Of a DNA stretch of 64,000 bases, positions 12,228 to 41,063 are shown one piece after another. Position numbers and translations under genes: made by a program. The stretch is taken from contig NZ_OUNR01000018.1 of NCBI RefSeq assembly GCF_900403705.1, positions 62,001 to 126,000 on the forward strand, read 5' to 3'. The notes beneath the pieces were generated by a model. The model was not told the origin of the DNA and searched no databases. It saw only the letters and a list, made by a program, of their open reading frames with translations. This DNA is from Nitrospira lenta (GTDB taxonomy: Bacteria > Nitrospirota > Nitrospiria > Nitrospirales > Nitrospiraceae). Numbering within the stretch: position 1 is the first letter of the stretch; every line of letters begins with the position of its first letter.

Positions 12228-12710
12228 GTGGGAATATTGCACACATACAATTCATGGCCGCACAGCATGTTGCGCGTCTGGATCATGGTCTGGATGCTGG
12301 CCATCCCCTTATTCCACGTCCATCCTGAAGCGGACCATCACCACGGAGCAGCGAACCATATCCACGGCGGCACCGTGCATACCGTCTTCTCCCCCGACCT
12401 GGACGACGAATTCAGCCACCACCAAGGCGAGGCTGCTGCAGCCGAACAACCGCCGGCAAACGAGTCCATTCTCTTCGAGCATCCCTCCCACGCGTCGGAC
12501 AATGGCGAAGTCGGATTTTCTTTCATCAGCGATTCGACCGATCGAACTCTGCCCAAGCCGCTCACCACATCGGCGCTCCTCGTTGAGCCTCCCGCTCCAA
12601 CTCCCCTGATCGCCAACCCATCGGTCGTTCACCCCATCCCCGTCACGCTTCCGCATACGCTCCTCACTCACGACATCCCCTCGCGCGCGCCGCCATCAGT
12701 GCCCGTCTAG
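12228..12710 (+). CDS. Histidine-rich membrane-anchored/exported protein upstream of czc operon
   Basis: A 160-residue protein I do not recognise as a named family. It has one hydrophobic segment near the N terminus (RVWIMVWMLAIPLF) followed at once by a histidine cluster, HVHPEADHHHGAANHIHGG, and a proline-rich, low-complexity C-terminal half. Such a layout is common in small exported metal-binding proteins encoded beside metal efflux pumps, and here the czcCBA-type genes start 107 bp downstream. The start is GTG with GGAG seven bases upstream. A metal-buffer or metal-sensing accessory role is an inference from composition and position only. Confidence 0.6.
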   Translation: MGILHTYNSWPHSMLRVWIMVWMLAIPLFHVHPEADHHHGAANHIHGGTVHTVFSPDLDDEFSHHQGEAAAAEQPPANESILFEHPSHASDNGEVGFSFISDSTDRTLPKPLTTSALLVEPPAPTPLIANPSVVHPIPVTLPHTLLTHDIPSRAPPSVPV

Positions 12711-12816
12711 CCTACACAACGCATTACACATTGTCCTCACGCGTAGCTCTCGCTGCGTAGGCAGGCCCTGACCCTGCCGGCGGTGAGATCTATCGACGAA
12801 ACCTAAGGAGGCTCTG

Positions 12817-14067: not shown

Positions 14068-14107
14068 GCACACCATCGTGGCAGAACGCTTGGCCGGGAG
14101 TATTCCA

Positions 14108-15286
14108 ATGACATCACGAAGAACGCTAACCAGAATGATCGCGGCAGTCTTCCTGTTTCTTGCAGGGTGCGGAGATCGAGGGACAGAGCCGACACCGCAC
14201 CCTTCGGCCTCACCCGCCAACATGAACACGGCAGCTCCCCGCCTGCTCCAACCTCCCGCGGTTGTCCGAGAGCGACTGCGAACGGAGCCCGTCACCCTGC
14301 ACCAGATTCCCGATCTGGTTACAGCTCCCGGGGAAGTCGCGCTGGATTTGAAACAGGTGGCGAAGATTACCTCCCGTATCGCCGGACAGGTTGAAAAGAT
14401 CCACGTCCAATTGGGCGATCGAGTCAAATCCGGTCAGCCCCTGGCGGCCATCGGCAGCTTGCAGCTCGATCAACTCATCGAAGAATACCTTGTCGGGAAG
14501 GCCCAGGCCGATGTCGCCGAGAACAGCTTCCGACGAACGGAACAATTGCGAGCCGACGACATTGTGACCGAGCGGAAGCTCATCGAAGACAAGGGTCGAT
14601 ACTTGGAAACCCAGGCGCGGTACCAGCATATCCGCGAGAAACTCCTGAACATGGGTCTGTCGACGGCGGAGCTGACCGCACTTGAGCGAGGCCGGCATGA
14701 AGAGAGTCATCGCTATACGCTGACATCGCCTATCGCCGGAACGGTCATCGCGCAAAATGCCGTGCGCGGTCAGGGGGTGGATCCGGGAACTGAATTATTC
14801 GAAGTCGTGGATACGAGCCGAGTCTGGGTCTTTGCCAATCTGCCGATTGAACAGGCCAGAAAATTTAAGGAAGGCGACGTGGGGACTATTCTGCCCACGG
14901 GCGGCGCCCCCATCACCGCGCCACTCACCTATCTTGCGCCGGTTGCGGACGAGACGACCCGCACGATTCGAATCCGCTTCGAGGTCGCGAACCGGCAGCA
15001 CAGGCTGAAGCCGCGAGAGTATGTGGATGTTCAGTTGACCGTGGCGAGTCCGCCGACTCCGGCGGTTCCCGTCTCCGCTGTGACGATGGTGGACAACGTG
15101 CGCGGGATCTTCGTCCGGCGCGAGACCGGGTATGTCTTCCTACCGATCGAAACCGGCCGCGAGGGCGGAGGGTGGGTTGAAGTGAAAAGCAGACTGGCGG
15201 CGGGCGAGCAGGCGGTGATCGACGGCGTCTTCGACTTGAAGAACGTGCTGCTGAAAGAACACATCGGATCCGGAGAGGGAGACTAA
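14108..15286 (+). CDS. czcB: RND efflux periplasmic adaptor lipoprotein (CzcB-like)
   Basis: A 392-residue membrane fusion protein. The chosen ATG at 14108 follows GGGAG by seven bases and gives a lipoprotein signal with lipobox FLFLAGC; the frame is open upstream to 14054 but that would bury the signal. The barrel-sandwich half-motifs GQVEKIHVQLGDRVKSGQPLA and TSPIAGTVIAQNAV flank a short hairpin, as in CusB/CzcB adaptors. It joins the inner membrane pump to the outer membrane duct. There is no histidine-rich N-terminal metal-binding segment, unlike some CzcB; that role may be met by the His-rich protein encoded upstream. Confidence 0.88.
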   Translation: MTSRRTLTRMIAAVFLFLAGCGDRGTEPTPHPSASPANMNTAAPRLLQPPAVVRERLRTEPVTLHQIPDLVTAPGEVALDLKQVAKITSRIAGQVEKIHVQLGDRVKSGQPLAAIGSLQLDQLIEEYLVGKAQADVAENSFRRTEQLRADDIVTERKLIEDKGRYLETQARYQHIREKLLNMGLSTAELTALERGRHEESHRYTLTSPIAGTVIAQNAVRGQGVDPGTELFEVVDTSRVWVFANLPIEQARKFKEGDVGTILPTGGAPITAPLTYLAPVADETTRTIRIRFEVANRQHRLKPREYVDVQLTVASPPTPAVPVSAVTMVDNVRGIFVRRETGYVFLPIETGREGGGWVEVKSRLAAGEQAVIDGVFDLKNVLLKEHIGSGEGD

Positions 15287-15287
15287 C

Positions 15288-18200
15288 ATGGAACGGCTGT
15301 TCACCCTCTCGCTGCGCTACCGATTCTTCACCCTGGTGGCGGCGAGTCTCGTCATCGTCATCGGTCTCTGGTCCTTCAGCCATCTCACCATCGATGCCAT
15401 GCCCGATCTGACGCCGGTCCAGGTTCAGGTCTTGACCCTTTCACCGGCGCTGGGCCCGGTTGAAGTGGAGCAGTTCATCACCTTTCCCATCGAAGCCTCG
15501 CTGAGCGGGCTGCCGGCCCTGCGTGAGCTTCGCTCGGTGTCCCGGTACGGGCTCTCGGCGGTCACGGCCATTTTCGAAGATCGGGTCGACATCTACCGCG
15601 CGCGACAGTTGGTCACCGAACGGCTGGCCCGCGCGATGGAGCGTATTCCCGCCGAGTACGGCCGTCCGCTTGTCGGTCCGCTGACGACGGGATTGGGCGA
15701 AGTCTATCAGTTCACACTCAAGGGACAGGGCTACAGCCCCATGGCGCTGCGCACGCTGCTTGAGTGGGAGATCGGCATGCGGCTGCGGGCGGTACCCGGC
15801 GTGGTGGAAGTCAACATTTGGGGAGGAGAACCGCAACAGTTCCAAGTCATCGTGGATCCGGCCAAGCTCCTGTCCTACAAGCTGTCCCTTCGGCAGGTGT
15901 TTGAGGCGCTCGAACGCAACAATGCCATCGCCGGCGGCGGCTATATCGAACGGCACCGCGAGCAACTGCTCATTCGCGGTGAAGCCTTAGCGACACAGGT
16001 GGCCGACCTCGCGAGGATCGTAGTCGCGCACGGCCCCGGCGGAGTGCCGATCTACATTGCGGATCTCGCGGAGGTGAAGGAGGCCTCGGCCCTCCGCATC
16101 GGCGCGGCGACGGCGATGGGACACGGCGAAACCGTCATCGGCATGGTTCAGATGTTGGCCGGCGAGAATGCGCAGCAGGTGGTTGAGCGGGTCAAGGCCA
16201 GAGTCAAAGAGATTGAAGCGACCCTTCCTCCAGGCGTGACCATCGAACCCTACTATGACCGAACGCTGTTGGTGTCGCAGGTGATGCGCACCGTGCGCAA
16301 CAATCTGCTCGAAGGGGGCTTGCTCGTCATTGCCGTGCTGTTCCTCTTCCTCGGCGATCTCCGGGCAGGCGTGATCGTGGCGGCCGCCATTCCGTTGTCG
16401 ATGCTGATCGCCTTCAGCGGCATGATGCAGGCGGGCCTCTCCGGCAATCTGATGAGCCTCGGGGCGATCGACTTCGGCTTACTCGTGGATGGTTCGGTCG
16501 TGATGGTCGATAGCATCCTCCGGCGATTGGCGAAGCACGGCGCGATGAGCCGGGAGGAGCGATTGAACGAGATCCTGGCGGCCGGCCGCGACATTCTTCG
16601 TCCCATGACCCTCGCCGTCACCATCATTATTCTTGTGTACGTGCCGATTCTGGCGCTGACCGGGATCGAGGGGAAAATGTTCCGTCCGATGGCGCTCACC
16701 GTTATCCTGGCGCTGGCGGGCTCTCTCCTCCTCGCCGTGACGGTAACGCCTCTGCTCGCCTTCTGGTTTGTGCGGGCTCCGTCAGGACGCAAAGACACTC
16801 GCCTGTTCGAACGGCTGCGCCGTGCCTATGAACCCTGTCTTAGGTGGGCGACGGCGCGCCCCACCTGGGTGGTGACGCCGGCGGTCGGGCTGTTTGTCGC
16901 GAGTCTCGGAATCGGCGCATGGATCGGCCTGGAGTTTGTGCCTCGGCTCGACGAGGGGGACCTGGCGATTCAAGTCTGGCGATTGCCCAGTGTCTCGCTG
17001 AACGAGTCGGTCAAAAATGCCCTGGACGTTGAACGGGTGCTTCGAACGTTTCCGGAAGTCGTACAGGTGGTCAGCAGGACCGGAAGTCCTGAGGTGGCAA
17101 CCGACGTAATGGGCGTCGAGCTGTCCGATGTGTTCGTCAATCTCAAGCCGCAACACGAATGGACGACGGCCAGGACACGCGAGGATTTGATTGCGGCCAT
17201 GAAGCCCGCCATTCTCGATGCGGTGCCCGGCGTCGGCCTCGGCTTTACGCAACCGATCGAGATGCGTTTCAACGAGCTCATCGCAGGCACGCGCTCCGAC
17301 CTCGCGGTCAAGATCTTCGGGCCGGATCTGGACGTGCTCCGGCGGCAGGCCGAATCCGTGGCGCGGGTCTTGGAAACCGTTCGCGGCGCAGCAGACGTCA
17401 AAGTCGAGCAGGTGGCAGGCCTTCCGCTGCTGCGCGTGATTGTGGACCGGGAACAGATCGCCCGCTATGGGCTGACGGCAGACGATGTGCTCACCCTTGT
17501 GCGAACCACGCGCGTGGGGCGCGTCGTCGGCACCGTGGTGCAAGGCCCTCGCCGCTTCGACCTCGTCGTTCGCTTAGCCGACAGCGCGTCGGCTGATCCT
17601 GCGGCATTGGGCAATCTGCTCATCCCGACCGCGCAGGGCGAACTGGTCCCTCTCTCCCGCGTGGCGGCCATCCGGGTGGACACGGGGCCGGCTCAGATCA
17701 GCAGAGAACATGTACAGCGGCGCATCGTGGTGGAGAACAACATCCGGGGAAGGGACTTGGGAAGTTTTGTGGCAGAGGCTCAGCGAGCCGTCTCACGGGA
17801 GGTCTCGCTCCCCACGGGATACGAATTGACCTGGGGCGGACAGTATCAGCATCTTCAAGAAGCCGCCAGCCGGTTAGCCATAGTCGTGTCCATCACCCTC
17901 CTCCTGATTCTCGGCGTGCTGTCGGTGATTTTCAGCGCTATGCGCCCCGCGCTGCTGATTTTCCTCAATGTGCCCTTAGCGTTGTCCGGCGGAGTGCTCG
18001 CGCTCTGGCTGCGTGGTCTGCCGCTCAGCATTTCAGCGGTGATCGGATTCATTGCGCTGTTTGGCATTGCGGTGCTCAATGGGGTGGTCCTGGTTAGCCA
18101 CATCCGGCAACTCGAAACGGAAGGGCTTTCGACGGAAGACGCAGTGAGGCAAGGCGCCATGGATCGACTCCGGCCCGTGCTGATGACCGCACTCGTCGCC

Positions 18201-18362
18201 AGCCTCGGCTTTCTCCCCATGGCAGTCGCCGCCAGCATGGGCGCCGAAGTCCAGCGGCCCCTCGCCACCGTTGTCATCGGAGGCTTAATCACGTCGACGC
18301 TGTTAACGCTGCTCGTCATTCCGGCAGTGTACGGTAGATTCTGCGGGAGACGCCTGCCATAG
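15288..18362 (+). CDS. czcA: Heavy-metal efflux RND pump (CzcA-like)
   Basis: A 1024-residue inner membrane proton antiporter of the heavy-metal-efflux RND class, starting one base after the adaptor stop. Transmembrane helix 4 carries the class signature LGAIDFGLLVDGSVVMVDS with D395, D401 and D408; in classical CzcA the third acidic residue is Glu (VEN), so D408 is a conservative change. The two repeated halves each have a large periplasmic loop and six helices, and the GYxxxWGGQYQH segment near residue 850 is also HME-like. HME pumps export divalent (Zn, Co, Cd, Ni) or monovalent (Cu, Ag) ions; the divalent-type DFGxxVDG motif favours divalent metals. Confidence 0.92.
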   Translation: MERLFTLSLRYRFFTLVAASLVIVIGLWSFSHLTIDAMPDLTPVQVQVLTLSPALGPVEVEQFITFPIEASLSGLPALRELRSVSRYGLSAVTAIFEDRVDIYRARQLVTERLARAMERIPAEYGRPLVGPLTTGLGEVYQFTLKGQGYSPMALRTLLEWEIGMRLRAVPGVVEVNIWGGEPQQFQVIVDPAKLLSYKLSLRQVFEALERNNAIAGGGYIERHREQLLIRGEALATQVADLARIVVAHGPGGVPIYIADLAEVKEASALRIGAATAMGHGETVIGMVQMLAGENAQQVVERVKARVKEIEATLPPGVTIEPYYDRTLLVSQVMRTVRNNLLEGGLLVIAVLFLFLGDLRAGVIVAAAIPLSMLIAFSGMMQAGLSGNLMSLGAIDFGLLVDGSVVMVDSILRRLAKHGAMSREERLNEILAAGRDILRPMTLAVTIIILVYVPILALTGIEGKMFRPMALTVILALAGSLLLAVTVTPLLAFWFVRAPSGRKDTRLFERLRRAYEPCLRWATARPTWVVTPAVGLFVASLGIGAWIGLEFVPRLDEGDLAIQVWRLPSVSLNESVKNALDVERVLRTFPEVVQVVSRTGSPEVATDVMGVELSDVFVNLKPQHEWTTARTREDLIAAMKPAILDAVPGVGLGFTQPIEMRFNELIAGTRSDLAVKIFGPDLDVLRRQAESVARVLETVRGAADVKVEQVAGLPLLRVIVDREQIARYGLTADDVLTLVRTTRVGRVVGTVVQGPRRFDLVVRLADSASADPAALGNLLIPTAQGELVPLSRVAAIRVDTGPAQISREHVQRRIVVENNIRGRDLGSFVAEAQRAVSREVSLPTGYELTWGGQYQHLQEAASRLAIVVSITLLLILGVLSVIFSAMRPALLIFLNVPLALSGGVLALWLRGLPLSISAVIGFIALFGIAVLNGVVLVSHIRQLETEGLSTEDAVRQGAMDRLRPVLMTALVASLGFLPMAVAASMGAEVQRPLATVVIGGLITSTLLTLLVIPAVYGRFCGRRLP

Positions 18363-18914: not shown

Positions 18915-19418
18915 TTAATAGCGCCCAGGCGGCTCTTTCATGGTCGTGAGCCTGCGATACAGTTGATGAAACTCGTCCGTACTGAGCGCAGGATTCTGCA
19001 GCTGCGCCAGCGCCGTCTGGTCGATTGTGGACTCCACCGTGTCGTCGTAGTTCGACGAGGCGATCGTCACGAAACGGGGGGGGAATAATCGCTCCGGTAA
19101 GAGAATGCCCACGTTCAGGTTGTACTTGAGCGCCAGACGGATCGCTTCCCGTGCCTTGTCGGCGGGAACGTCACGGCCAAGACCGATGTTCTGTGGCGGC
19201 CGGCCCATTCTGGCGAACTGAAAATGAACGTTCGTCAAGCCTGCCTGAGTAAACTCTTCGGTCAAGGTCGCCGTCCGACTCCGATACTGATCGGCCAGCA
19301 CGACCTCGACGCGGCTCACCGGGGGAACCGCCGTTCCCTCGGCGATGACCGCCGGTGTCCCTGTCGCACCGACACCGACGGCCATGGCAAATGCGCACAC
19401 AAATCGGCGAAGCGTCAT
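18915..19418 (-). CDS. Exported protein of unknown function in the multicopper oxidase cluster
   Basis: A 167-residue protein with a signal peptide (FVCAFAMAVGVGATGTPAVIAEG). The mature part has an alpha/beta pattern (VEVVLADQYRSR, then NIGLGRDVPADKAREAIRLA and NVGILLPERLFPPR) and no metal motif. I do not recognise the family. The segment with regularly spaced DVPADKAREAIRLALKY suggests a small globular sensor or binding domain. It begins 3 bp after the stop of the gene before it and ends 9 bp before the next, so the three small exported proteins probably share one transcript. Confidence 0.6.
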   Translation of the reverse strand: MTLRRFVCAFAMAVGVGATGTPAVIAEGTAVPPVSRVEVVLADQYRSRTATLTEEFTQAGLTNVHFQFARMGRPPQNIGLGRDVPADKAREAIRLALKYNLNVGILLPERLFPPRFVTIASSNYDDTVESTIDQTALAQLQNPALSTDEFHQLYRRLTTMKEPPGRY

Positions 19419-19421
19419 GCT

Positions 19422-20198
19422 CTATTTCGCGTCGAAGGTAAATCCAACCGACGCGCTCCCATTCTCGACCACGGTGACTTCTTGTTCTCTCTCGCCGAGG
19501 ACCGGATGCCAGGCCTTGATGCGATAGGTCCCGGCAGGAAGATCCTTGATCGCGAACGTTCCCTCCGTGCCGGTGACGGCATAATAGGGATTGTCCACGG
19601 CGAGCCCGTGTCCCTGCATGAAGGGGTGCATCCCACATTGCATCGTGACCTCGCGCCGGGTGCCGGTGAACCGAACCACGTCGCTCGTCCCCGCTTTCGT
19701 CAGGGCCGGCCGGTGAAACATGATGAAAATATGTTCCCGGTCCCGTTCATAAAACTGCAAATCGTGGGCGACTGAATCCAGATTGACGACGCTGAGCGGG
19801 CGCTCGTTCCGCACGACGGAGACGAACGGCACAAACTGGCAGATGTTCGCTTCGAGTTTGGTCTCTTGAAATTCGAACGGCTTGCCCTTGAACACACCTT
19901 CAATCGTCACCACCGCATCTTTCAATCCCTGCTGTTCGCCGACCGACACCTCACGCAGCAGCCGATAGCCCGACCCGTCTGACAGCGCCCCGCAATAGAC
20001 CCGGTCATAATACCGTCGCAGCTCGAACCGCTGAGGATCCGGAATGTCACCGGAAAATTGGACCGTCCCCTTCACGGTCCCTCCGTTAGTGACCGTCGTT
20101 TCCTCGTAGGCCGCGGCCTGGGCCGCTCCCATCAGCCACACCGTCAGCAGTATCCCCATCATCATCCTCGCCACAACTCGACGTGCAGATCCAGACAT
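19422..20198 (-). CDS. Exported cupredoxin/carboxypeptidase-regulatory-like protein
   Basis: A 258-residue exported protein. After the signal (ILLTVWLMGAAQA) comes a segment like those of the methylamine-utilisation-type exported proteins: GTVKGTVQFSGDIP, SVVNLDSVAHDLQFYER (a cupredoxin-like loop with a histidine) and VTMQCGMHPFMQGHGLAV, where Cys, Met and His residues could bind copper. The C-terminal part (EGTFAIKDLPAGTYRIKAWHP) is a carboxypeptidase-regulatory-like beta sandwich. It lies directly downstream of the giant multicopper oxidase, so a copper delivery or electron-transfer role is plausible but inferred. ATG at 20198 is preferred over an upstream TTG at 20216 because it begins the signal peptide. 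Confidence 0.7.
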   Translation of the reverse strand: MSGSARRVVARMMMGILLTVWLMGAAQAAAYEETTVTNGGTVKGTVQFSGDIPDPQRFELRRYYDRVYCGALSDGSGYRLLREVSVGEQQGLKDAVVTIEGVFKGKPFEFQETKLEANICQFVPFVSVVRNERPLSVVNLDSVAHDLQFYERDREHIFIMFHRPALTKAGTSDVVRFTGTRREVTMQCGMHPFMQGHGLAVDNPYYAVTGTEGTFAIKDLPAGTYRIKAWHPVLGEREQEVTVVENGSASVGFTFDAK

Positions 20199-20220
20199 AG
20201 TTCCCACCGTATACAAGGTT

Positions 20221-20330: not shown

Positions 20331-23300
20331 TTAGCGTCCCACCAGCGATGTCCGCGAGACGGTTCCGTTGTCGCTCCCAAACTCCGCCTTCTTGCTGGCC
20401 GGAATTTGTGGAGTCAACGGAAGGACCCGCTGATCATCGATGGGAAGGACCTTGAAGAGTCCCCATTGTCCGGCGTTCACAAAGCCCGGACGCTGGTTCT
20501 TCCACATGTAGTCGCCGACGATCTTGTTCGGGCCGCCCGCGCCGCCCGTCAGATAGGCGTTGATGACTTCTGACCCGCCGAACTCCATGGTGCTGACCTG
20601 GTCGGCACCCTGCATGTACGGCTCATGCGGCCATTCGTGGCCGTCCACGGTGAACAGCTGCACCTGCTCGCTGAAGGCGCCGAGCACGTGCACCGCCACC
20701 GGATCGCCCACATGCGCCAGCAAGAGCGGCGTCGAGGGCGTGTCGCCGGTCTTCACGCAACTGAAGACCTCGGACACGTCGCAGCCCTTTTCCATCCGAT
20801 ACGCGGTCGGCTCAGACCGGTAGTTGACCGCCGTGATGCCGGCGACCTGTTGGATGTAGGGCATGAAGCTGACACCCACGATGTTGTCCTCGTCCTGGAA
20901 CATCAACGAGAAATCGCGGTAGTTCTTCCGATTATCGTTCCCGGGGATCGTCCGATCCACGAGCACGTCGGCGCGCCAGCTGCTCTTCATCGTAATGTCG
21001 TGGCCCGTCACCGGATCGCGGTAGCGCGATCCCTTCGGACCGACGATGATCGACCCGAACAAGCCGTTCCGTGGATTCTCCACCACGTTCCCCCAATCCT
21101 GGATGAGGGCGGCCAGTTCGCCGTACTCCGGATGCGCAAAGTACGTGTAGGTCTTGCTCTGCCCCGGAGCGATCGTTTGATCGCCGGGGTTGTTGCCGAC
21201 GTTGGCCCCGAACGAATCTTTCGGATCGAACGCCATCATATCGACGTGGAATCCGGCCCGTTCCTTGGCCATGTCGTTCTTCAGATTGATCTTCACGCAA
21301 TCCCCGACGTTCACGTGCAGCGTCAGCGGGCTCGGCCGCAATTCACCGGCCTTGACCCGTCCACGATCCTCGTCGAGCACATACATCTTGCCCTGCTGAT
21401 TCTCCATGACCATCTTGCGTTCGAGATCGACTTCCATCGTACCCGGCGCGCCCTCGTGATACCGGATGACTTGATCGATCGCCGACACATTGAAAGCCTT
21501 CACCGGCGCGTCTGCCGAGCAGACCGACGGCGCGGACTTCTGAATCTCTTCCCGGCTCGGCAAGGGCTTCAGATCCCCTTGCAGTTCATCAAAGACCCGG
21601 AAGATCCCCCAACTGCCTTCCGCAAAATGGGACGCGCGGCCGCTGTAGTAGAGATAGTCGCCCGCCTGCTTCTGCGGTCCACCCGCGGCAGGAATCGCCG
21701 GGTCGTACCGTTCACCGATCACCAGGTGCACCGTACTGCGCGGCATCGCCATGGTGGCGTACCGCTCCATCGGGAACCAGTGTCCGGTCACGTGCCAGGT
21801 ATGCACTTCGTTGGCCGACCCGACCAGCGCCCGCACCAAGATCGGATCGCCGAGATAGCTCCGCAACAACGGCGTCCCCGGATCCCCGTGAATGCCGGAC
21901 ACAAACAGCTTCGACGGATCCGGATTGTTGGCCAGACGCACGCTCAACGGTTCGACACGCATGCTGTAGCCGCTGCCCGTCGTGGCTTCGCCGCCGTTCA
22001 GGAACGTCATCGCCGACTTGTTGATGCGCTCCGGGAACTGGTGCGACGGAGGTCCGTCTACCGTGACCGCCCCCATGCGGGCCTGCGGATTATCGGTCAT
22101 GATCAGCTCCGCCGACCGGGCATTGCTGTCCATGATATGCATCATGACTTCGCGGAAACTGCCCCGGATATGGGCCGAGACCGGCTCCAGGGTGTGAATG
22201 TCCGCGATGGGACCGCTCCGGAGTTCTTTTCCGGTATACGGGTCATGATAGGTCGATCGCGGCGGCTCGGTGATGAACGCTGAGAACAGACCATGTCCCC
22301 AGGTATCGGTGCCGAACACGTGATCGTGCCAATAGACTGTGCCGAGGTCCGCGTCGACATACCAGCGCTCACGAATGAACTCGACGCTCGCAATGTCGTT
22401 CTTCTTGTGCGCGTACTTCAACGGACGGTCAAAGGTAATGGTATTGCCCTTGATGTCCTTGATCCGCGCGACCTCGAAATACTTCGGATCGTCCATGCCT
22501 ACGCCGAGTTCCGTATTGACGTGGAACTTCGACGAATTCTTCACCGTGATGCTGCGTGAACCGGCTTTCGTATCAGCCGTCAGCGTCGTGTTGCCGGGCA
22601 GGGGCATGCCCTTGTCCGGTTGCGGATCCTCCAGCATCGTGAAGGCTCGCAACGACATGTCGTACGAGAATCCGATCGTCGGACCGTCGGACGCACTCGT
22701 ATCGAACTGGAAGAAGTGCGGATGGAGATTGATCTTGTTCGCCCATCCGGTCCGCGCATCGTCCGGGATTTCGTTCTTGAAGACCACGTCCACGCAATCG
22801 TGCACGTTCCCGCGAATCACCAAGGGCACTTGTTTCTTGGGATTCTTGCGGACTTCTTCTTCCTCTTCATGCAGTACATAGATCATGCCGATCGGATCCA
22901 CCACCGCGGCGGTTTTGGGAGTCGCCGGCTTGAGGGTGATCGGCAAGGTGATCGAATGGATATTGAAATACTTTCTCGGCGCATTTTCAGGACAGAGACT
23001 CCAGGGCCCCTGCGCGCCCGGCACAGGAGGCTCCGTGCTTCTGGTGCCGTCTTCACGGACACGGAACGGTTCCAACCAGGGCGCGCCGCCGTGATTGGGC
23101 GCAAACGGAGGCCGCTTCCCGAGGTGCGGACGCAACCAGGGGAACGCCAGCTTGCCCGTCTGCGGATCGAACGTGATCGCCGGACGCTGCAACGGCGTCG
23201 GCGAAACATAATCCGCCCACTTGTGCGGCGTCTCCGGCTCGTTCATCGCCCGCGTCCCGTTCCACTTCCAGTTCACCACGGTCGCATCATGCGCTTGTGC

Positions 23301-25073
23301 TTGCTTGACCTGATCTTCGGTCTTACCCGGCAAGCCCTGCGGCGGCAGCATGTACTCAACCCAATCCTTGATCGAGACCTTCACGGGATTGGCTTTCCAA
23401 TCCGTCTTGTCCTTGGTGATCTCGTACTTCTTGCCGCCGTACCAATCGACCGTGGTGCCGACCAACTTGTCCGAACTCACGGACAACTTGATCTTCCCTT
23501 TGCGATCGGGCAACTCCACCAACGGCTTCATCACGTCAGTCTGGAATCCGACCGACTGCAATGTGTTGTACACACGCCAGAAGCCCCACATGCCGGTCAC
23601 ATAATGCTGGGGGATATGGCAATGGAAGACGAACTCACCCGCCAGCGCCTGGAGTCCGCCCGATCCGCCTTCGATGACTTCATCGTAGATCTCGGACGGA
23701 CCGATGGATTGCACATCCAACCGGTCTGACGTATCGCTGATCGGCGGGAACTTCACCGGGCCGCTCTTCGACAACGTCGGATCGAGCTTGCTCGTACCGG
23801 GCTGTCTGGCCCAGCGGATCGATCCGCCATGCAAGTGATGCGAATGGACGATTTCGGATCCGCCGATCATGCGGAACTTGGCCGGATCCCCCAAGTAGGA
23901 ACGGGGAACCGTCGTCGCCGGATCACCGAACGTGTAGGAGCCATAGCCCTGTGATTCATCGGCAAATCCCACCAGATGCGCTTGAATCTCCAAACGCTCG
24001 CCGTGCGGCTCACTGCGATAGTTCAGCAAGCGCGCCGCCGGACGATAGGTGTCCGTATGGGCATCGCGCTGCGGCAACATGTCGCCTTTGCGATCCAACA
24101 AGCGGAACGTCTCGTCGCCTGCCTCGTGATAGAAAATCACGAATTCGCGGAAGTCCGAGGCGTTCGCCAGGTCGATCATGGCTTCCCACCCGCTCTTCAT
24201 CTCTTCCCCCGTAAACGGGCTGAGGAACCGGGCCCCGCGTGGCTCGACGACAATCGATCCCAGCAAGCCTAGAGAGTACTGATCACGGCTGGCATGGCTA
24301 TGGAAGGCGCGGCCGCCTTCCTGTAAATCGATGGGAATGTACCATTCGAACTCGCCCGCTTTTCCCGTCGGAACCAGCGCCTCAGGGTTCATGGCATTCG
24401 CCGGCTTCCCCGTGCTGGCCACGAGCATCTGCGAACCGTTCACGATCATGTTCGTGGGTTCATTCTCAATCTGATTGCGCAATGTAATCCGCAGGCAATC
24501 GCCCTGGTTCGCCCGAATCACCAGCGGCTGGATCAGATCGCCCTGCAACCCGTTCGAGATGGCGCCGCCGGCAAACGTCGGATCCTCACTGTCCCGCGCC
24601 GCCTTGTTCTTCGTTTCTTCCTCACGCACACCCGCGACATTTTCGGTCAACGCATACATGTAGCCCGGATAAAAATCGCCGAACCGGTTCACGGTGATCT
24701 CGACATTCATCGCCGTGATGTCATACGCGCGGACCGGCGCCGTCACCGGGCAACGAGCGCCCTGCGTCACTTGCACCTTATCCGGATCCTCCGCCACCAG
24801 CAGCACACCCTGCTGCATGGCGTGGGCGCCGGCTCCCTGGAACGGCCCCTTACTCTTGACCTCTCGCTCGATCTGCTCGATCGCCTTCGACATCTTGTCC
24901 TGCAGCACCGGACCGGCCTGCGCATGCACCGGCGTCGCCACATCCGCATTGTGATCGACGGCGACATGCCCATCATGCGACATGACCGCGCCTGCAGGCA
25001 TGGTCCCGGCCAACCCAAGACAGGTCGTCAGTCCCAACATTCCTACCCGCACCCACTTCGTTGATACACCCAT
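20331..25073 (-). CDS. Giant six-domain multicopper oxidase (MnxG/MofA-type)
   Basis: A 1580-residue exported oxidase. The ATG at 25073 is chosen because GGAGGAGG lies just upstream and a Sec signal follows (VGMLGLTTCLGLAGTMPAGA); the frame stays open to a GTG at 25247. Six cupredoxin-like units can be traced. Copper motifs occur in the order HSHHLH (410-415), HCHIPQHYVTGM (484-495, type 1 Cys485 with Met495), HPHFF (784-786) and YWHDHV (916-918). In laccases the HxH motifs come first, so here the order is permuted and the trinuclear site would form between domains 2 and 3. Later units keep the fold (THWHVTGHW-like and AHPEYGEL-type) but no further complete site. Size and permuted order recall MnxG and MofA, implicated in Mn(II) oxidation; the substrate here is inferred. 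Sigma-54-type promoter and enhancers lie upstream. Confidence 0.88.
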   Translation of the reverse strand: MGVSTKWVRVGMLGLTTCLGLAGTMPAGAVMSHDGHVAVDHNADVATPVHAQAGPVLQDKMSKAIEQIEREVKSKGPFQGAGAHAMQQGVLLVAEDPDKVQVTQGARCPVTAPVRAYDITAMNVEITVNRFGDFYPGYMYALTENVAGVREEETKNKAARDSEDPTFAGGAISNGLQGDLIQPLVIRANQGDCLRITLRNQIENEPTNMIVNGSQMLVASTGKPANAMNPEALVPTGKAGEFEWYIPIDLQEGGRAFHSHASRDQYSLGLLGSIVVEPRGARFLSPFTGEEMKSGWEAMIDLANASDFREFVIFYHEAGDETFRLLDRKGDMLPQRDAHTDTYRPAARLLNYRSEPHGERLEIQAHLVGFADESQGYGSYTFGDPATTVPRSYLGDPAKFRMIGGSEIVHSHHLHGGSIRWARQPGTSKLDPTLSKSGPVKFPPISDTSDRLDVQSIGPSEIYDEVIEGGSGGLQALAGEFVFHCHIPQHYVTGMWGFWRVYNTLQSVGFQTDVMKPLVELPDRKGKIKLSVSSDKLVGTTVDWYGGKKYEITKDKTDWKANPVKVSIKDWVEYMLPPQGLPGKTEDQVKQAQAHDATVVNWKWNGTRAMNEPETPHKWADYVSPTPLQRPAITFDPQTGKLAFPWLRPHLGKRPPFAPNHGGAPWLEPFRVREDGTRSTEPPVPGAQGPWSLCPENAPRKYFNIHSITLPITLKPATPKTAAVVDPIGMIYVLHEEEEEVRKNPKKQVPLVIRGNVHDCVDVVFKNEIPDDARTGWANKINLHPHFFQFDTSASDGPTIGFSYDMSLRAFTMLEDPQPDKGMPLPGNTTLTADTKAGSRSITVKNSSKFHVNTELGVGMDDPKYFEVARIKDIKGNTITFDRPLKYAHKKNDIASVEFIRERWYVDADLGTVYWHDHVFGTDTWGHGLFSAFITEPPRSTYHDPYTGKELRSGPIADIHTLEPVSAHIRGSFREVMMHIMDSNARSAELIMTDNPQARMGAVTVDGPPSHQFPERINKSAMTFLNGGEATTGSGYSMRVEPLSVRLANNPDPSKLFVSGIHGDPGTPLLRSYLGDPILVRALVGSANEVHTWHVTGHWFPMERYATMAMPRSTVHLVIGERYDPAIPAAGGPQKQAGDYLYYSGRASHFAEGSWGIFRVFDELQGDLKPLPSREEIQKSAPSVCSADAPVKAFNVSAIDQVIRYHEGAPGTMEVDLERKMVMENQQGKMYVLDEDRGRVKAGELRPSPLTLHVNVGDCVKINLKNDMAKERAGFHVDMMAFDPKDSFGANVGNNPGDQTIAPGQSKTYTYFAHPEYGELAALIQDWGNVVENPRNGLFGSIIVGPKGSRYRDPVTGHDITMKSSWRADVLVDRTIPGNDNRKNYRDFSLMFQDEDNIVGVSFMPYIQQVAGITAVNYRSEPTAYRMEKGCDVSEVFSCVKTGDTPSTPLLLAHVGDPVAVHVLGAFSEQVQLFTVDGHEWPHEPYMQGADQVSTMEFGGSEVINAYLTGGAGGPNKIVGDYMWKNQRPGFVNAGQWGLFKVLPIDDQRVLPLTPQIPASKKAEFGSDNGTVSRTSLVGR

Positions 25074-25288: not shown

Positions 25289-25304
25289 AGCAAATTGTGT
25301 TCCC
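25289..25304 (-). promoter_or_regulatory. Sigma-54-like promoter for the multicopper oxidase
   Basis: On the minus strand the sequence reads GGGAACACAATTTGCT, with GG and GC ten bases apart and an intact TTGCT -12 element; the -24 element differs from TGGCAC at two positions. Transcription would begin near 25278, leaving a leader of about 205 bases to the ATG at 25073. Two enhancer-like inverted repeats lie 72-182 bp upstream. Confidence 0.5.
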
Positions 25305-25652: not shown

Positions 25653-26585
25653 ATGCAAACCCCTCGACGCTTCACGGGATACACGTCACGACCGCTGAAG
25701 TATCGCGGCGTCTTCAGCGCGGCGGTCTTCATCGCGCTCATGGGCGCCACGTGCCTGTTTGCAGCAACCGCGGCGACACCTGATATCGCCGCTCTCATCG
25801 CCGCGCAGGCCGAACCCTCTCCGATGCAGACCGTGGCAGCAGGCTCGTTCCTCATGGGTACGGCCCGTGCCAACCACGGATTGTTCAGCCTCGATCTTCA
25901 CTATGACGACACAGAACAACCGCAGCGGCGCGTGTGGCTCCACCGGTATGAGATCGATCGGGATGAGGTGAGTCTGGGACAATTTTTACTGTGGCTCAGC
26001 CAGCAACAGCGCCCGCTCTCCGAGGGCCTGCGCAAACTGATCGAACATGTCACGACCGTCCATGCCCTGCCGCCGGATACCCTGGCGCGCTGGCCCGCGC
26101 TGTATGTCACCTGGTCCGAGGCGTCTGATTATTGCCGCGCGCAGGGAAAGCGTCTCCCGACCGAAGCCGAGTGGGAAAAGGCCGCGCGCGGCGAGCAGGC
26201 GAATCTCTTTCCCTGGGGGCCGCAATCACCGACACCGGCGCTGGCGATGTTCGGCCAGTCTAATGTACACGAGATTCCCATCGTCGCGCCCGTCGACAGC
26301 GGAGAGCAGGGACGCAGCCCCTATGGCCTGCATCACATGGCGGGCAATGCCGCCGAGTGGGTCGAAGACTGGTTCGGAATCGACTATTACATGACCATGC
26401 CGGAACGCGATCCACCCGGCCCGTCCACTGGACGCTACAAAGTCGTCCGCGGAGGGTCGTGGAAGAGTACGCCCGCCTTGCTGCGAACGGCGACCAGAAG
26501 CGGAGCGGCGCCGGACCAGCGGACGGCGTCCATCGGATTCCGCTGCACGCGTTCCCTGACGTCTGCCACCACTCCGACTCCATGA
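25653..26585 (+). CDS. Exported formylglycine-generating-enzyme-like (SUMF1 domain) protein
   Basis: A 310-residue exported protein, divergent from the multicopper oxidase. After a signal (VFIALMGATCLFAATAA) comes a complete FGE-sulfatase/C-type-lectin-like domain: AAGSFLMGTARAN, RYEIDRDEVSLGQFL, LPTEAEWEKAARGE, NLFPWG, HHMAGNAAEWVEDWFG, VVRGGSWKS and IGFRC. The two active-site cysteines of true formylglycine-generating enzymes are not visible (only a late FRC cysteine), so it is more likely a structural or partner-modifying relative of the PvdO/NirV kind than a sulfatase activator. The promoter upstream has an operator-like palindrome. It overlaps the next gene by 4 bp. Confidence 0.85.
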   Translation: MQTPRRFTGYTSRPLKYRGVFSAAVFIALMGATCLFAATAATPDIAALIAAQAEPSPMQTVAAGSFLMGTARANHGLFSLDLHYDDTEQPQRRVWLHRYEIDRDEVSLGQFLLWLSQQQRPLSEGLRKLIEHVTTVHALPPDTLARWPALYVTWSEASDYCRAQGKRLPTEAEWEKAARGEQANLFPWGPQSPTPALAMFGQSNVHEIPIVAPVDSGEQGRSPYGLHHMAGNAAEWVEDWFGIDYYMTMPERDPPGPSTGRYKVVRGGSWKSTPALLRTATRSGAAPDQRTASIGFRCTRSLTSATTPTP

Positions 26586-27280: not shown

Positions 27281-28489
27281 TTACCGTGCCGTTCGCAGCC
27301 GATCCGGCAGATGCGTCAAATCGATGAGCGATCCATCGGCCAGCACCGCCGCGTGTTCGATGACACTCCATAGCTCGCGCAGATTGCCGGGCCAGGGATA
27401 GTGGCGCAGTCGCCGCCGTGCGCGGGGCGTGAAATTCTGCCACATGAGGTGGTCGTCCCTATGGCCCACCTGACAGGTCCTGAGAATCCAGTGCGCCAAG
27501 GCGTCGATATCGTCGACCCGCTCGCGCAGCGGACGAAGCAGAACCGGAACGACGTTCAGATGCCAATAGAGATCTTCACGGAACTCCCTTCTGTCGCAGC
27601 AGGCTTGCAGATCCTGCGTTGATGCGGCCATGACGCGCAAGTCTAGATCGTAATACCGTTCCTCCCCCACCCGGCGCCCACGGCACTCCTTCAACGCGCG
27701 CGCGATTTTTGCCTGGAGCCGCGGACTGAGACCGCCGACCTCGTTGAGATACAGGGTACCGCCTCGCGCCATTTCCAACAGGCCCGGCTGTGAACCCGAT
27801 GATCCCGCGACGCCGAACACCTGCGCGTCCAGCGTCGCGTCATCGCCGGCGATACAGCCGACGGAGACGAATGGCTTTGACCGGCGCACGCAGCGCGCAT
27901 GAATCGTTCGCGCCAGATATTCTTTGCCGGTGCCCGCTTCACCGGAAATCAGCAGAGCGGCCTCCGTCGCCGCCACTCGCTCAACGACGTCTCGCACCAT
28001 CTGGGTTGCCGCACTGTTTCCAATCAACACTCCTTCTTGAGCGGCCGTGCCGCGCTCCATCAGGCCAGTGACCGGAGCGCGCGAGACCTCCGCGCGGACA
28101 CTCGCAACGCCGCGTTCTTGACCGAGCGCGCGCTGCACCACGGTCCGGAGTTCCTGCCCGGTAAACGGCTTGGCCAGATAATCGAAGGCGCCATGCCGCA
28201 TGGACGCCACCGCAGTTTGAATGGACGCATAGGCCGTCAGCAACACCACCGTGATCGCCGGATCGATCCGCTTGGCCGCTTGCAATAACCCAATGCCGTC
28301 GAGGCCCGGCATGCGAAGATCGGTGAGCAGAACTTGCGGACGCTCGCGCTCGATCACGGCCAACGCCCGATTCGAATCGGCTTCGCCCACGCACTGGTAG
28401 CGATGCCGGCTCAGAATTCGTCGACAGTTTTCAATCGCCTCGGGCTCATCATCGACAATCAATATCTTATCCGGCGTCAACGTCTCCAC
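27281..28489 (-). CDS. Degenerate NtrC-type response regulator (receiver plus AAA+, no GAFTGA, no DNA-binding domain)
   Basis: A 402-residue protein. The receiver (about 1-125) is intact with phosphoacceptor Asp57 (LLTDLRMPGLDG) and Lys107. The AAA+ domain keeps Walker A (GEAGTGKE, 183-190) but Walker B reads GGTLYLNEV, with Asn249 for the catalytic Asp, and the sigma-54-contact loop GAFTGA is replaced by GVAGSSGSQPG (226-236). The protein stops after the AAA+ lid, PGNLRELW...LPDRLRTAR, with no Fis-type helix-turn-helix. It is therefore unlikely to activate sigma-54 polymerase itself. It lies downstream of an intact paralogue and its own sigma-54-like promoter, and may act by mixed assembly with that paralogue. 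Confidence 0.85.
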   Translation of the reverse strand: METLTPDKILIVDDEPEAIENCRRILSRHRYQCVGEADSNRALAVIERERPQVLLTDLRMPGLDGIGLLQAAKRIDPAITVVLLTAYASIQTAVASMRHGAFDYLAKPFTGQELRTVVQRALGQERGVASVRAEVSRAPVTGLMERGTAAQEGVLIGNSAATQMVRDVVERVAATEAALLISGEAGTGKEYLARTIHARCVRRSKPFVSVGCIAGDDATLDAQVFGVAGSSGSQPGLLEMARGGTLYLNEVGGLSPRLQAKIARALKECRGRRVGEERYYDLDLRVMAASTQDLQACCDRREFREDLYWHLNVVPVLLRPLRERVDDIDALAHWILRTCQVGHRDDHLMWQNFTPRARRRLRHYPWPGNLRELWSVIEHAAVLADGSLIDLTHLPDRLRTAR

Positions 28490-28586
28490 ACGGTCCTCTT
28501 TCTGTGTCGCAGGGGGAAAGAGCGCGCAGACTCAGAGCTTCATCACGTGGAGCCCTGCCCGCCCAAGCCTCTCTGGCTAAAAGCTA

Positions 28587-28602
28587 AGCAAGTGCGATGC
28601 CG
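28587..28602 (-). promoter_or_regulatory. Sigma-54-like promoter for the degenerate regulator
   Basis: The minus strand reads CGGCATCGCACTTGCT: GG and GC ten bases apart, TTGCT intact, two mismatches to TGGCAC at -24. The start codon at 28489 would be about 86 bases from the expected transcription start. The ATGGG/CCCAT repeat lies only 14 bp upstream of it, closer than usual for an enhancer. Confidence 0.45.
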
Positions 28603-28616
28603 ACAAGAAAGAGAAT

Positions 28617-28636
28617 ATGGGACAGCGACGCCCCAT
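28617..28636. promoter_or_regulatory. Enhancer-like repeat matching the oxidase site
   Basis: ATGGGACAGCGACGCCCCAT differs by one base from the site at 25377-25396 upstream of the multicopper oxidase. Two such 20-bp matches in intergenic DNA 3.2 kb apart, each next to a sigma-54-like promoter, point to a shared activator. Confidence 0.5.
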
Positions 28637-28730
28637 CAAAATGCAGACATGACTGAAGAGTTTCTGGCGAGACACTATCGAAGAACTGAGTCGGTCGCTC
28701 CTGCCCGCAGAGGAGTCAGAGAGATTCCAG

Positions 28731-30137
28731 CTAACTTGGCTCTCGAAGGCCGTGCCGCTTCACCATGCGTTCGATCGTCTTGCGATCCACGCCGGCTTCT
28801 TGCGCGGCGTTGCTCATGTGCCAGTCATGGCGTCTCAGAAGTTCCAGGAGAAAACTGCGCTCGAACGAACGGACGACTTCCTGCTTGGCCTGCTTGTAAG
28901 ACCCCGCTTCCTCCGCGCCGGACTCATCCGATCCTGCCGCACGAATACGCTCGGGGAAGTGTTCGGCCCGGATCGTGGGTCCATCGGCCAGCGCCGCCAC
29001 CCGCTCAATCACATTCTGAAGTTCACGAACATTGCCCGGCCAGGTGTGCGCCGTCAAACAAGCTAAGGCCGCCGGATCGAAGGCCGGCTCGCTCCCGCGC
29101 CCCCGGAAGCGCATCAGAAATTCCTGCGCCAACACCTGCACATCGCCCTGACGTTCCCGCAACGGAGGCAGCAGGATCGGAATGACGTTGAGGCGGTAAA
29201 AGAGATCCTCGCGAAACTCTCCCTTGCGGCACGCGTCTTCCAGATCCCGGTTGGACGCCGCAATCACCCGGACATCGATATCCGCGTAGCGCGTCCCGCC
29301 CACGCGGCGGACATGGCGTTCCTGCAAGACCCGGAGCAACCGCGATTGAAGCGTCTGGCTCATGCCGCTGACTTCATCCAGAAAAACCGTGCCGCGATTG
29401 GCCGTTTCGAATAGGCCGACCTTCGCCGCATGCGCTCCGGTAAACGCCCCCTTCTCATGGCCGAAGAGTTCAGATTCGAGCAAGGAATCCGGAAGCGCCA
29501 CACAATCGAGCGGCACGAAGGGCCGGCTCGCCCGGTCACTTTCATCATGAATGGCGCGCGCCACCAATTCCTTCCCCGTTCCGCTCTCACCGTAGATCAA
29601 CACGTTGGCATCTGTCCGCGCGACTTTTCTGACGAGCTCCTTCACGCCGCAAATCGCCGAGCTGGTTCCCCGAATAAAATCGATGCCGCTCTTCCTGACC
29701 GCGTCGCCGGCCGAGGCCGGCCGATCGAGCCCCGCCACAGAAGGGCTGCCGGTGCGCGGCTGCCCGCGGTATTCAAAGGCTCGCTTGGCCACATCTTCCA
29801 GATTCTTGCTGGAGTAGGGCTTGAGCACATAATCCAGCGCGCCGTATCGCATGGAGTCCACGGCAGTTTGTACTGTCGCGTAGGCAGTCATCAACACCAC
29901 GTTGATCTTCGGATCGACCCGTTTTGCCTCAACCAGGACACTGATTCCATCGAGCCCGGGCATGCGCAGATCCGTCAAGACCAGTTCAGGCCGCTCCTGC
30001 TGGATGCGTTGCACGGCACGAATGGGGTCGTGCTCCGTCAGACAGTCATAGCCCAAACGGCTCAAGATGCGGCGGCAGTTGTCCAGCGCATCCACTTCAT
30101 CGTCAACGATCAGTATCTTGCCTGTTCCCATTCCCAT
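28731..30137 (-). CDS. Sigma-54-dependent response regulator (NtrC family)
   Basis: A 468-residue activator with all three NtrC domains. Receiver: Asp56 (LVLTDLRMPGLDG). AAA+: Walker A GESGTGKE (183-190), GAFTGA (230-235) and Walker B VFLDEV (about 251-256). The C-terminal helix-turn-helix (NAAQEAGVDRKTIERMVKRHGL) is of Fis type. The gene overlaps the histidine kinase gene by 28 bp, so the pair is a two-component system. It would bind an upstream inverted repeat and activate sigma-54 promoters; the ATGGG/CCCAT repeats before the oxidase and before the degenerate regulator are the natural candidate sites, an inference from position. Confidence 0.95.
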   Translation of the reverse strand: MGMGTGKILIVDDEVDALDNCRRILSRLGYDCLTEHDPIRAVQRIQQERPELVLTDLRMPGLDGISVLVEAKRVDPKINVVLMTAYATVQTAVDSMRYGALDYVLKPYSSKNLEDVAKRAFEYRGQPRTGSPSVAGLDRPASAGDAVRKSGIDFIRGTSSAICGVKELVRKVARTDANVLIYGESGTGKELVARAIHDESDRASRPFVPLDCVALPDSLLESELFGHEKGAFTGAHAAKVGLFETANRGTVFLDEVSGMSQTLQSRLLRVLQERHVRRVGGTRYADIDVRVIAASNRDLEDACRKGEFREDLFYRLNVIPILLPPLRERQGDVQVLAQEFLMRFRGRGSEPAFDPAALACLTAHTWPGNVRELQNVIERVAALADGPTIRAEHFPERIRAAGSDESGAEEAGSYKQAKQEVVRSFERSFLLELLRRHDWHMSNAAQEAGVDRKTIERMVKRHGLREPS

Positions 30138-32146
30138 CCGGCCTCCTGCTGCGACTCCGCTGCCGACACCAACGCGGGAAGAGAGACCGTCGCCACGGCC
30201 CCGCGCCGGCCGTTGTCGATTTCAAGACGTCCACGATGATCGGCCACGATGCCGTAACTGAGGAATAACCCCAGGCCGGTGCCCTGCCCTTCACCCTTCG
30301 TCGTAAAGAACGGATCGAAGATGCGTCCCAACATCTCTGCTGGAATGCCGGGGCCCGTATCGCTGATCCGTACCGCCACCAAGCCGCCCTCTTTGCCCGG
30401 CCCCCCTTCGGAATGAACCGTGACGACACCTGGAGAAACGCCGCTTTCAGCCGCATCGATCGCATTATTGATCAAGTTTAACATCACCGTTTCGATGCGG
30501 TCGCGATCGCCCATGATCGGCGGCAGACTGGGCGACAAGACTGATTCAATACTGACCCCTTTGGTCAAGGCCCTCTCCTTAGATGCATCGATACAGGCTC
30601 GGAGGACACAATTCACATCCATGGGTTTCAACACGGTGGCCGATCCTCGGGACAAGGCCAACATACTCTTCGTGATCCGCGAGATGCGATCCGCCTGAGT
30701 CCGGATCGCCACCAAGTCTCGTTGCTGCTCCTCCGACACCCCCAACTGCGCGGCCTCGGCCTCCATACACTCGATCCGGTTGAGAATGATCCCCAACGGA
30801 TTATTGATTTCATGCGCGATCCCGCTGGCCACCTTGCCCAGCGTCGCCAGACGTTCGGAGAACTGCAGCTGCTTCATGTGCTCCGTGACTTCGGCGGTTT
30901 TGTCTTCGACGCGCCGGGCCAGATCGGCATTCAACGCTTCCAGTTCCCCACGCGAGGCTTTCAGCCGGTCCGCCATATGGTGAACGGCGGCGGCCAGCTC
31001 CTCAAATTCATCGCCGGTCCGTATATTCAACGGACGGTCATAGGTGCCCTGACTGATGGCCTCTACACCGGTCTGGAGAATCTGAATCGGACGGGCAATC
31101 CGCGCGGCCACATAGCGCCCCATCGCCCAGAGCAATCCCAGCATCACCAGGCCGATCGCCGCCAGGTTCCGCAGCTGATCGCGAATCGGCGCATAGCTTT
31201 CCCCCGGCTCTTGCCGCACAAAGATATGCCACGAGTTATCCGGCAACGGCAGACCGGCGACCGGCGCAAACCCGACGACCGTATCCATCGCTCCATGCCC
31301 GTCGTCTTCCGCAATGCCCCATCCCGGGTGCGACGATACGATCATCGTCATCAATTGAGCGGGAATGCGATGGGCTTGCCGGGGCAAGATAGGACAGACC
31401 AGCGGATTGCCCGCCGCATCGAAGAGCATGGCGTGGCCGGTCTGCCCGATCCGAATCTGATTGATCATCGCGAAGAGGCTGTCGAATCGATAGGACGCTT
31501 TCACCGCTCCGATGACGGTGTGCTGCCGGTCATCGAGAATCGGCACGGCAATGTCGATGGTTTCCTCGGGCGTCCTGAAGGACCCCTCGTGCGCCGGAAT
31601 CAGCCCGCTGATATAGACCTGATCGACGCCGCCCGCATGAATGGCCGTCCACCAGAGCTCCTGTTTGAATGAATAGTGGTCCGGCTCTGAACTCGCCGCC
31701 ACCAGAGCCCCGTGCTGATCGGCAATCAACAGACCGACGACTTTGTCTCCGTCGCGCACCTTGGTCTCCAACAGGAAGCGGGAGAGTTCGGCGTTCACCA
31801 GCCGCCCGACCCCATCCCCGCCTTTCTCCCACGCCTGCATCCGCTCCGCAATCAATGCCTGCGTCTTCTCGCGATCGACCGGATAGGATTCATTGGCGGC
31901 CTCGACCGGCTGGCGCACACGCAACGGCGCAGATCCAAGGAGCCGCACCCCTTGGACTTCGCCCTGAACCAGCATCGTGACGCGATCGGCAGCCTGGATC
32001 GCCACCGCCTGAAGATTCCCGCCGATGACATCGCGCAACGAACGCATGCCCGACACATAGGCCAACACCAGACCGATCAGCAGCGGGATACACCCCACCA
32101 GCACAATGGCCAATACAATACGTCCGCGAATGGTTCGAATTTTCAT
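30110..32146 (-). CDS. Membrane sensor histidine kinase with extracytoplasmic dCache-like domain
   Basis: A 678-residue kinase. Transmembrane helices at about 10-32 and 327-347 enclose a 290-residue periplasmic sensor with Cache-type features (VVGLLIADQHGALVAASSEPD, ETIDIAVPILDDRQHTVIGAVKASY). A HAMP linker (348-400) and coiled coil lead to HisKA with His445 in GIAHEINNPLG and an HATPase domain with NLINNAIDAAE, DTGPGIP and GTGLGLFLS. The domain order fits kinases that phosphorylate NtrC-type regulators, here the overlapping downstream gene. The signal is unknown; a periplasmic Cache domain suggests a small ligand or metal-related cue. Confidence 0.93.
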   Translation of the reverse strand: MKIRTIRGRIVLAIVLVGCIPLLIGLVLAYVSGMRSLRDVIGGNLQAVAIQAADRVTMLVQGEVQGVRLLGSAPLRVRQPVEAANESYPVDREKTQALIAERMQAWEKGGDGVGRLVNAELSRFLLETKVRDGDKVVGLLIADQHGALVAASSEPDHYSFKQELWWTAIHAGGVDQVYISGLIPAHEGSFRTPEETIDIAVPILDDRQHTVIGAVKASYRFDSLFAMINQIRIGQTGHAMLFDAAGNPLVCPILPRQAHRIPAQLMTMIVSSHPGWGIAEDDGHGAMDTVVGFAPVAGLPLPDNSWHIFVRQEPGESYAPIRDQLRNLAAIGLVMLGLLWAMGRYVAARIARPIQILQTGVEAISQGTYDRPLNIRTGDEFEELAAAVHHMADRLKASRGELEALNADLARRVEDKTAEVTEHMKQLQFSERLATLGKVASGIAHEINNPLGIILNRIECMEAEAAQLGVSEEQQRDLVAIRTQADRISRITKSMLALSRGSATVLKPMDVNCVLRACIDASKERALTKGVSIESVLSPSLPPIMGDRDRIETVMLNLINNAIDAAESGVSPGVVTVHSEGGPGKEGGLVAVRISDTGPGIPAEMLGRIFDPFFTTKGEGQGTGLGLFLSYGIVADHRGRLEIDNGRRGAVATVSLPALVSAAESQQEAGWEWEQARY

Positions 32147-41060: not shown

Positions 41061-41063
41061 CGA

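Follow-up and report, generated by a model that had tools for sequence, protein, structure and literature searches.

Features of the oxidase locus

The window, a 64,000-nucleotide stretch of Nitrospira lenta DNA, carries on its minus strand a gene for a very large multicopper oxidase (MCO), followed by genes for three exported proteins and preceded by a sigma-54-type promoter element and the genes of an NtrC-type two-component system (Table 1). A reading based on the sequence alone had described the three exported helpers and had proposed a metal-oxidation system in a nitrifier-type genome; all three helper genes are present and the source is indeed a Nitrospira. Translation of the oxidase from the ATG at 25073 gives a protein of 1580 codons, the reading frame being open as far as a GTG at 25247. 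The N-terminus was judged by eye to be signal-peptide-like and of the export type.

Table 1. Features of the MCO locus (positions are those of the window; residues are those of the named protein)
Feature	Position	Strand	Remarks
Six-cupredoxin-domain MCO, MnxG superfamily, clade A, 1580 aa, exported	20331..25073	-	ORF, homology, alignment
Copper motif C, domain 2 (H410, H413, H415)	23829..23846	-	Ligand columns, MnxG alignment
Copper motif D, domain 2 (H484, C485, H486, H490, axial M495; type-1 site)	23589..23624	-	
Enlarged linker between domains 2 and 3, about residues 521-690	23004..23513	-	Linker much shorter in MnxG
Copper motif A, domain 3 (H784, H786)	22716..22724	-	Alignment
Insertion of ~86 residues in domain 3 between motifs A and B, about residues 813-898	22380..22637	-	Absent from MnxG
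Copper motif B, domain 3 (H916, H918)	22320..22328	-	Alignment
Helper 1, exported cupredoxin (residues 114-207) nested in a carboxypeptidase-regulatory-like beta-sandwich	19422..20216	-	
Helper 2, exported 167-aa protein, fold without assignment	18915..19418	-	Beside clade A oxidases only
Helper 3, exported SmbP-like (small metal-binding protein) homologue, 143 aa	18474..18905	-	
Czc/Cus-type heavy-metal RND efflux genes	12817-18362	+	Convergent with the MCO operon
Sigma-54-type promoter element GGGAAC-N5-TTGCT	25289..25304	-	About 230 nt upstream of the MCO start
Exported SUMF1/FGE-domain protein	25653..26585	+	Oriented divergently from the MCO; some other family members also have a homologue nearby
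Second NtrC-like regulator, degenerate paralogue	27281..28489	-	Without HTH domain and GAFTGA loop
NtrC-type sigma-54-dependent response regulator	28731..30137	-	Receiver, AAA+, Fis-type HTH
Sensor histidine kinase	30110..32146	-	dCache, HAMP, HisKA, HATPase

Copper ligands and domain architecture

The four copper motifs that the sequence-only reading had listed in the order HSHHLH, D motif, HPHFF and YWHDHV were all found in that order, in a real open reading frame on the minus strand. In standard MCO nomenclature the order is C-D (domain 2) followed by A-B (domain 3), which is permuted with respect to laccase. The strings H410-S-H-H413-L-H415, H484-C485-H486-IPQ-H490-YVTG-M495, H784-P-H786 and W-H916-D-H918 contain, as their numbered residues, every one of the 12 ligands of the type-1 and trinuclear sites. 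All 12 occur unchanged in Priestia MnxG and in each of the 18 Nitrospirota proteins used for the tree; conservation of the motifs extends through a 98-sequence Nitrospirota alignment comprising three clades (43 sequences of clade A, 19 of clade B and 36 of clade C). In the family alignment, domains 4-6 lack complete sets of ligands, and the protein is thus expected to have a single type-1 site and a single trinuclear cluster. An 'HSH' at residue 258 in domain 1 was considered as an extra copper site and rejected, as it is not conserved (RSH in clade B, Hsy in clade C).

Six cupredoxin units had been traced in the translated sequence, and profile-profile comparison bears this out, resolving the protein into three repeats of a two-domain unit: each pair of the family-alignment slices 100-530, 740-1185 and 1180-1575 matched with 99.1-99.9% probability. 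Every odd domain is headed, in all clades, by a cysteine pair (C108/C193, C694/C760 and C1185/C1259) that probably forms a disulfide. Motif spacing suggests that the Streptomyces and Rubrobacter relatives have a domain-3 insertion similar to that of the N. lenta protein. In oxidase homologues of ~1700-1770 aa from the same order (family f3; genomes G036, G039, G042, G048, G050, G052, G054 and G056-G058), alignment to the MCO breaks at residues 874-877, within the domain-3 insertion, which suggests that these proteins carry a larger insert inside it.

An AlphaFold model of MCO residues 100-1180, made with 47 homologues, was poor (mean pLDDT 58) and left domain 2 unmodelled, so that the cluster geometry between domains 2 and 3 rests on alignment. 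When this weak fragment was compared with known structures using VIA-align, 9bxa ranked first (Z 21.9; next 16). From ligand conservation and the MnxG alignment, we infer that the trinuclear cluster is held between domains 2 and 3. We propose that the gene product is secreted and catalytically complete and belongs to the permuted six-domain MCOs, the MnxG superfamily.

Relationship to MnxG and other multicopper oxidases

MnxG (9bxa_A) is the sole strong relative of the MCO among solved structures in the PDB, and the E-values of the match (phmmer E=1.4e-89; profile E=9.7e-119) exclude chance. Priestia MnxG and the MCO are colinear end to end, with 33% identity over 1128 positions. The one type-1 histidine that is absent from 9bxa was removed by engineering (Ala340 of the H340A mutant) and Priestia MnxG reads HCHLYPH at this place; the native type-1 ligands of MnxG and the MCO therefore match. 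In the tree, the Nitrospiria proteins form a deep clade of their own, outside the branch that contains MnxG and the Rubrobacter and haloarchaeal relatives, with a Streptomyces plasmid protein nearest to them, the deep order being unsure given long branches and a midpoint root. This plasmid protein (L107:5335-10653, 1772 aa) is the nearest non-Nitrospirota relative found, and its gene is followed by one annotated as CopC. Against the NCBIfam MnxG equivalog NF041487, the MCO scores 136.4 bits, below the curated cut-off of 3100.

Bacillus MnxG requires mnxE/mnxF (PMC5622069), and in Priestia two small genes precede mnxG in an mnxE-mnxF-mnxG-like order. No significant match to mnxE or mnxF was obtained in the examined Nitrospirota MCO loci (best E about 0.04). 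By these comparisons the MCO is a cousin of MnxG with the same predicted catalytic layout and is not MnxG itself. The link to Mn(II) oxidases that had been drawn from size and motif order thus stands as far as membership of the permuted six-domain MnxG superfamily, and is weakened by the separate clade, the low equivalog score and the missing mnxE/mnxF. The phylogenetic check suggested along with it likewise gave a divided answer: the Nitrospiria proteins lie apart from the MnxG branch, and a copper-detoxification grouping is without support in a tree composed of Nitrospirota proteins, MnxG and the Streptomyces, Rubrobacter and haloarchaeal relatives. The MCO, with 1580 aa, six domains and the order C-D-A-B, is outside the CueO/PcoA type, whose three-domain enzymes have a different motif order (A and B before C and D).

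Proteins encoded beside the oxidase

The AlphaFold model of the first helper protein has a pLDDT of 88, and its segment 114-207 resembles cupredoxins such as plastocyanins and amicyanin, with Z 9.6-11.5. H151, C194, H197 and M200 are invariant in a 19-row alignment, and the ligand loop has the form C-x2-H-P-F-M (here CGMHPFM), a spacing that we take to be that of amicyanin. By its modelled fold and its conserved H, C, H and M residues, helper 1 is a predicted type-1 copper cupredoxin. A cupredoxin homologue is encoded directly downstream of the MCO at 22/34 clade A, 11/12 clade B and 24/27 clade C loci, the remaining 12/34 clade A loci being without one at this position.

The second helper belongs to a strongly conserved family that was found in the region immediately downstream of the clade A MCO at all 31 of the 31 loci with room for it; a search of PDB sequences with the 167-aa protein gave no significant match. 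The relationship of the third helper to SmbP is seen at the family level, since Pfam SMBP (PF16785) matches 18/18 orthologues (best 8.1e-9), the window copy alone giving E=0.25.

Two further neighbours were considered as parts of the system and rejected. The SUMF1/FGE gene is not a fixed partner, homologues being found upstream of the MCO at 9/27 and downstream at 6/31 clade A loci, and downstream at 6/22 clade C loci. The Czc-type RND genes are downstream of the MCO in 0/31 clade A loci, a neighbourhood unlike that of the relatives; within the window they are preceded by a gene for a His-rich 160-aa protein at 12228. On the other side of the oxidase, 36079-38541 (+) encodes a molybdopterin oxidoreductase with an N-terminal Rieske_3 3Fe-4S domain, like the arsenite oxidase large subunit; a small subunit was not identified. 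Elsewhere in the N. lenta genome, a separate 653-aa protein has two Cu-oxidase_3 matches.

Two-component system and sigma-54-type element

A conserved NGGAA[C/T]-N5-TTGCT, a variant of the sigma-54 -24/-12 element, is located 206-244 nt upstream of the start in clade A carriers. Allowing ≤2 mismatches, it was present at 10/11 clade A loci with the kinase and regulator versus 1/21 without them (Fisher p=1.8e-6), for a motif that was defined after inspection of the data (from the TGGAAC variant in the upstream regions of relatives) and at loci that share ancestry. Each of the 21 regulator-free loci has at least 6.5 kb of upstream sequence. The sequence flanking the element has diverged, and the element recurs upstream of some clade B and clade C copies with the same regulators. 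This co-occurrence of element and regulators supports control of the MCO operon by the two-component system via the sigma-54-type element. The two-component system, which the sequence-only reading had called dedicated, is present at 27281-32146, and its dedication to the operon is best described as probable.

The second NtrC-like regulator gene is in tandem with the intact one, and a copy of high identity turned up only in the closest relative (L023), so it is probably a recent degenerate duplicate. The strict sigma-54 consensus TGGCAC-N5-TTGCW was rejected as the MCO promoter: its two exact matches in the window, a chance-level count, are elsewhere (43170-43185 and 56374-56389, +). Another histidine kinase and NtrC-type regulator are encoded at 39672-43016 (-).

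Distribution and earlier reports

Among 186 genomes of the class Nitrospiria with completeness ≥90%, the MCO was found in 184 (E≤1e-50) and the neighbouring cupredoxin family in 185; one genome, G041, is without both. In a phylum-wide sample, only weak MCO matches were obtained beyond the class (E 1e-14 to 1e-4). The N. lenta genome has three MCO copies, each with a cupredoxin homologue directly downstream, and clade A and clade B MCO genes are often adjacent. A clade C copy is present in the cultured N. moscoviensis (L092). Near the copy on contig C17, bd-like oxidase and cytochrome-like genes were identified by eye, a neighbourhood that resembles the NXR-linked cluster of Nitrospira and Nitrospina (PMC3578206). 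On a Candidatus Troglogloeales contig (L074), a cupredoxin-family gene (8956-9810) is just upstream of the oxidase gene (9749-14812), not downstream.

Luecker et al. (2013) reported that an MnxG-like periplasmic MCO is conserved in Nitrospina and Nitrospira, suggested that it acts through Mn(III) as a defence against ROS, and recorded that the NXR cluster encodes cupredoxin-like proteins (PMC3578206). The MnxG-like MCO of Nitrospina gracilis and Nitrospira defluvii described there is probably of the same family as the MCO studied here. That paper covers the NXR-linked copy and protection from ROS, and we found in it no account of the clade A copy, of the helpers of that copy or of control by sigma-54. 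Putative Mn oxidases have also been reported in most nitrifier MAGs from a subsea tunnel, in a study which stressed that proof is lacking and that, for the nitrifier families under discussion, Mn oxidation has yet to be demonstrated (PMC11995701). In the open-licence papers, we found no report of Mn oxidation by Nitrospira, and no description of the recurrent MCO-cupredoxin pairing across paralogues, of a clade A operon that also encodes SmbP-like and 167-aa proteins or of the sigma-54 switch. What is new with respect to the 2013 account is that the first helper is a predicted cupredoxin paired with most MCO copies, that the third is SmbP-like and that a sigma-54-type element precedes the operon.

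Proposed function

The type-1 copper in domain 2 would take electrons singly from a reduced substrate and pass them through the His-Cys-His bridge to the trinuclear cluster between domains 2 and 3, where O2 would be reduced to water; ligand conservation and the MnxG alignment point to this route. The exported cupredoxin and the copper-binding helpers, judging from their conserved adjacency, may shuttle electrons or supply copper, and in this lineage the NtrC-type two-component system would switch the operon on from the sigma-54 promoter. The likeliest substrate is a low-valent metal ion, with Mn(II) the first candidate; Mn(II) specifically is named tentatively, as we would put it at somewhat under an even chance. 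The reaction would serve to protect the cell, through Mn(III)/ROS cycling or the detoxification of metals, and not to support growth. To this explanation as a whole (an MnxG-superfamily MCO with a cupredoxin and copper helpers, a sigma-54 switch, a low-valent metal substrate and a protective role) we give about even chances of being correct.

It is possible, if rather unlikely, that the neighbouring cupredoxin and not a free metal ion feeds the type-1 copper, and that the two proteins act as a valve for overflow or redox balancing, through which periplasmic electrons derived from nitrite or copper chemistry reach O2. Such a cupredoxin:O2 oxidoreductase is consistent with the adjacency of the two genes in three paralogous clades, with their near-universal joint presence in the class, with the short amicyanin-like ligand loop, which is typical of electron carriers, and with the likeness of the C17 cluster to an NXR-linked cluster that has cupredoxin-like proteins of its own. 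However, the cupredoxin might instead serve to donate copper, an adjoining cupredoxin gene is missing at several clade A loci and none is annotated at the Priestia mnx locus. The stronger form of this proposal, in which the Nitrospiria MCO would be an obligate cupredoxin-coupled periplasmic oxygen reductase and not a free-metal oxidase, giving the cell an electron route to O2 besides the heme oxidases, and in which a dedicated sigma-54 two-component system would switch one paralogue, we regard as quite doubtful.

Copper tolerance offers another explanation, in which the MCO would oxidize periplasmic Cu(I) to Cu(II) and the cupredoxin and SmbP-like protein would act as copper handlers. By family membership, both of these proteins bind copper or metals, the Streptomyces, Priestia and Rubrobacter relatives are near copC genes and heavy-metal RND efflux genes adjoin the MCO operon in the window. 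These efflux genes do not recur downstream of the clade A relatives, the motif order is unlike that of the three-domain CueO/PcoA enzymes and the 653-aa Cu-oxidase_3 protein could take the role of a cuprous oxidase; the explanation is an unlikely one. Highly improbable is an energy-conserving oxidation, in which Mn(II) electrons would leave the MCO for the cupredoxin and respiration. The Candidatus Troglogloeales homologue with its adjoining cupredoxin-family gene would suit such a lithotrophy, and the Candidatus Manganitrophaceae, Mn lithotrophs of the same phylum, have two MCOs each (PMC9040806); however, the trinuclear cluster passes electrons to O2, the authors of that study prefer Cyc2 and PCC_1, and near-universal presence in the class speaks against a special role in growth on Mn.

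Nitrospira carry out much of the nitrite oxidation on Earth. Nearly every sampled genome of their class encodes a giant MnxG-like oxidase, and identification of its substrate would tie nitrification to the manganese or copper cycle, or else uncover a further path for periplasmic electrons to O2. The pairing with a cupredoxin and the switch by sigma-54 provide concrete handles on the problem, namely a partner protein and a promoter.

Comparison with known systems

The closest characterized system is MnxG of Bacillus sp. PL-12 (PDB 9bxa) and Priestia megaterium, which shares with the MCO its six domains, the order C-D-A-B and the 12 ligands. In contrast, the Nitrospira MCO belongs to a separate clade and is encoded without mnxE/mnxF, having cupredoxin and SmbP-like helpers instead, and it differs in its larger linker between domains 2 and 3 and its 86-aa insertion in domain 3. 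MnxG of Pseudomonas putida GB-1 (NF041487) is detectably homologous, yet far from the score of an equivalog. The resemblance here is also one of regulation: mnxG and mcoA of P. putida have predicted IHF/sigma-54 promoters and a proposed MnxS1/S2-MnxR two-component pathway (PMC11930936), a parallel to the Nitrospira MCO operon that modestly favours a metal-oxidation role.

Leptothrix MofA, likened to the MCO here by description, is also a large MCO with four motifs and a redox-protein gene in its operon. In the mof operon this protein is the cytochrome c MofC (PMC8218464), whereas in Nitrospira a cupredoxin takes its place. Helper 1 itself has in common with amicyanin and plastocyanin the fold, the H-C-H-M ligands and a short C-x2-H-x2-M loop, and differs from them in being nested in a carboxypeptidase-regulatory-like domain.
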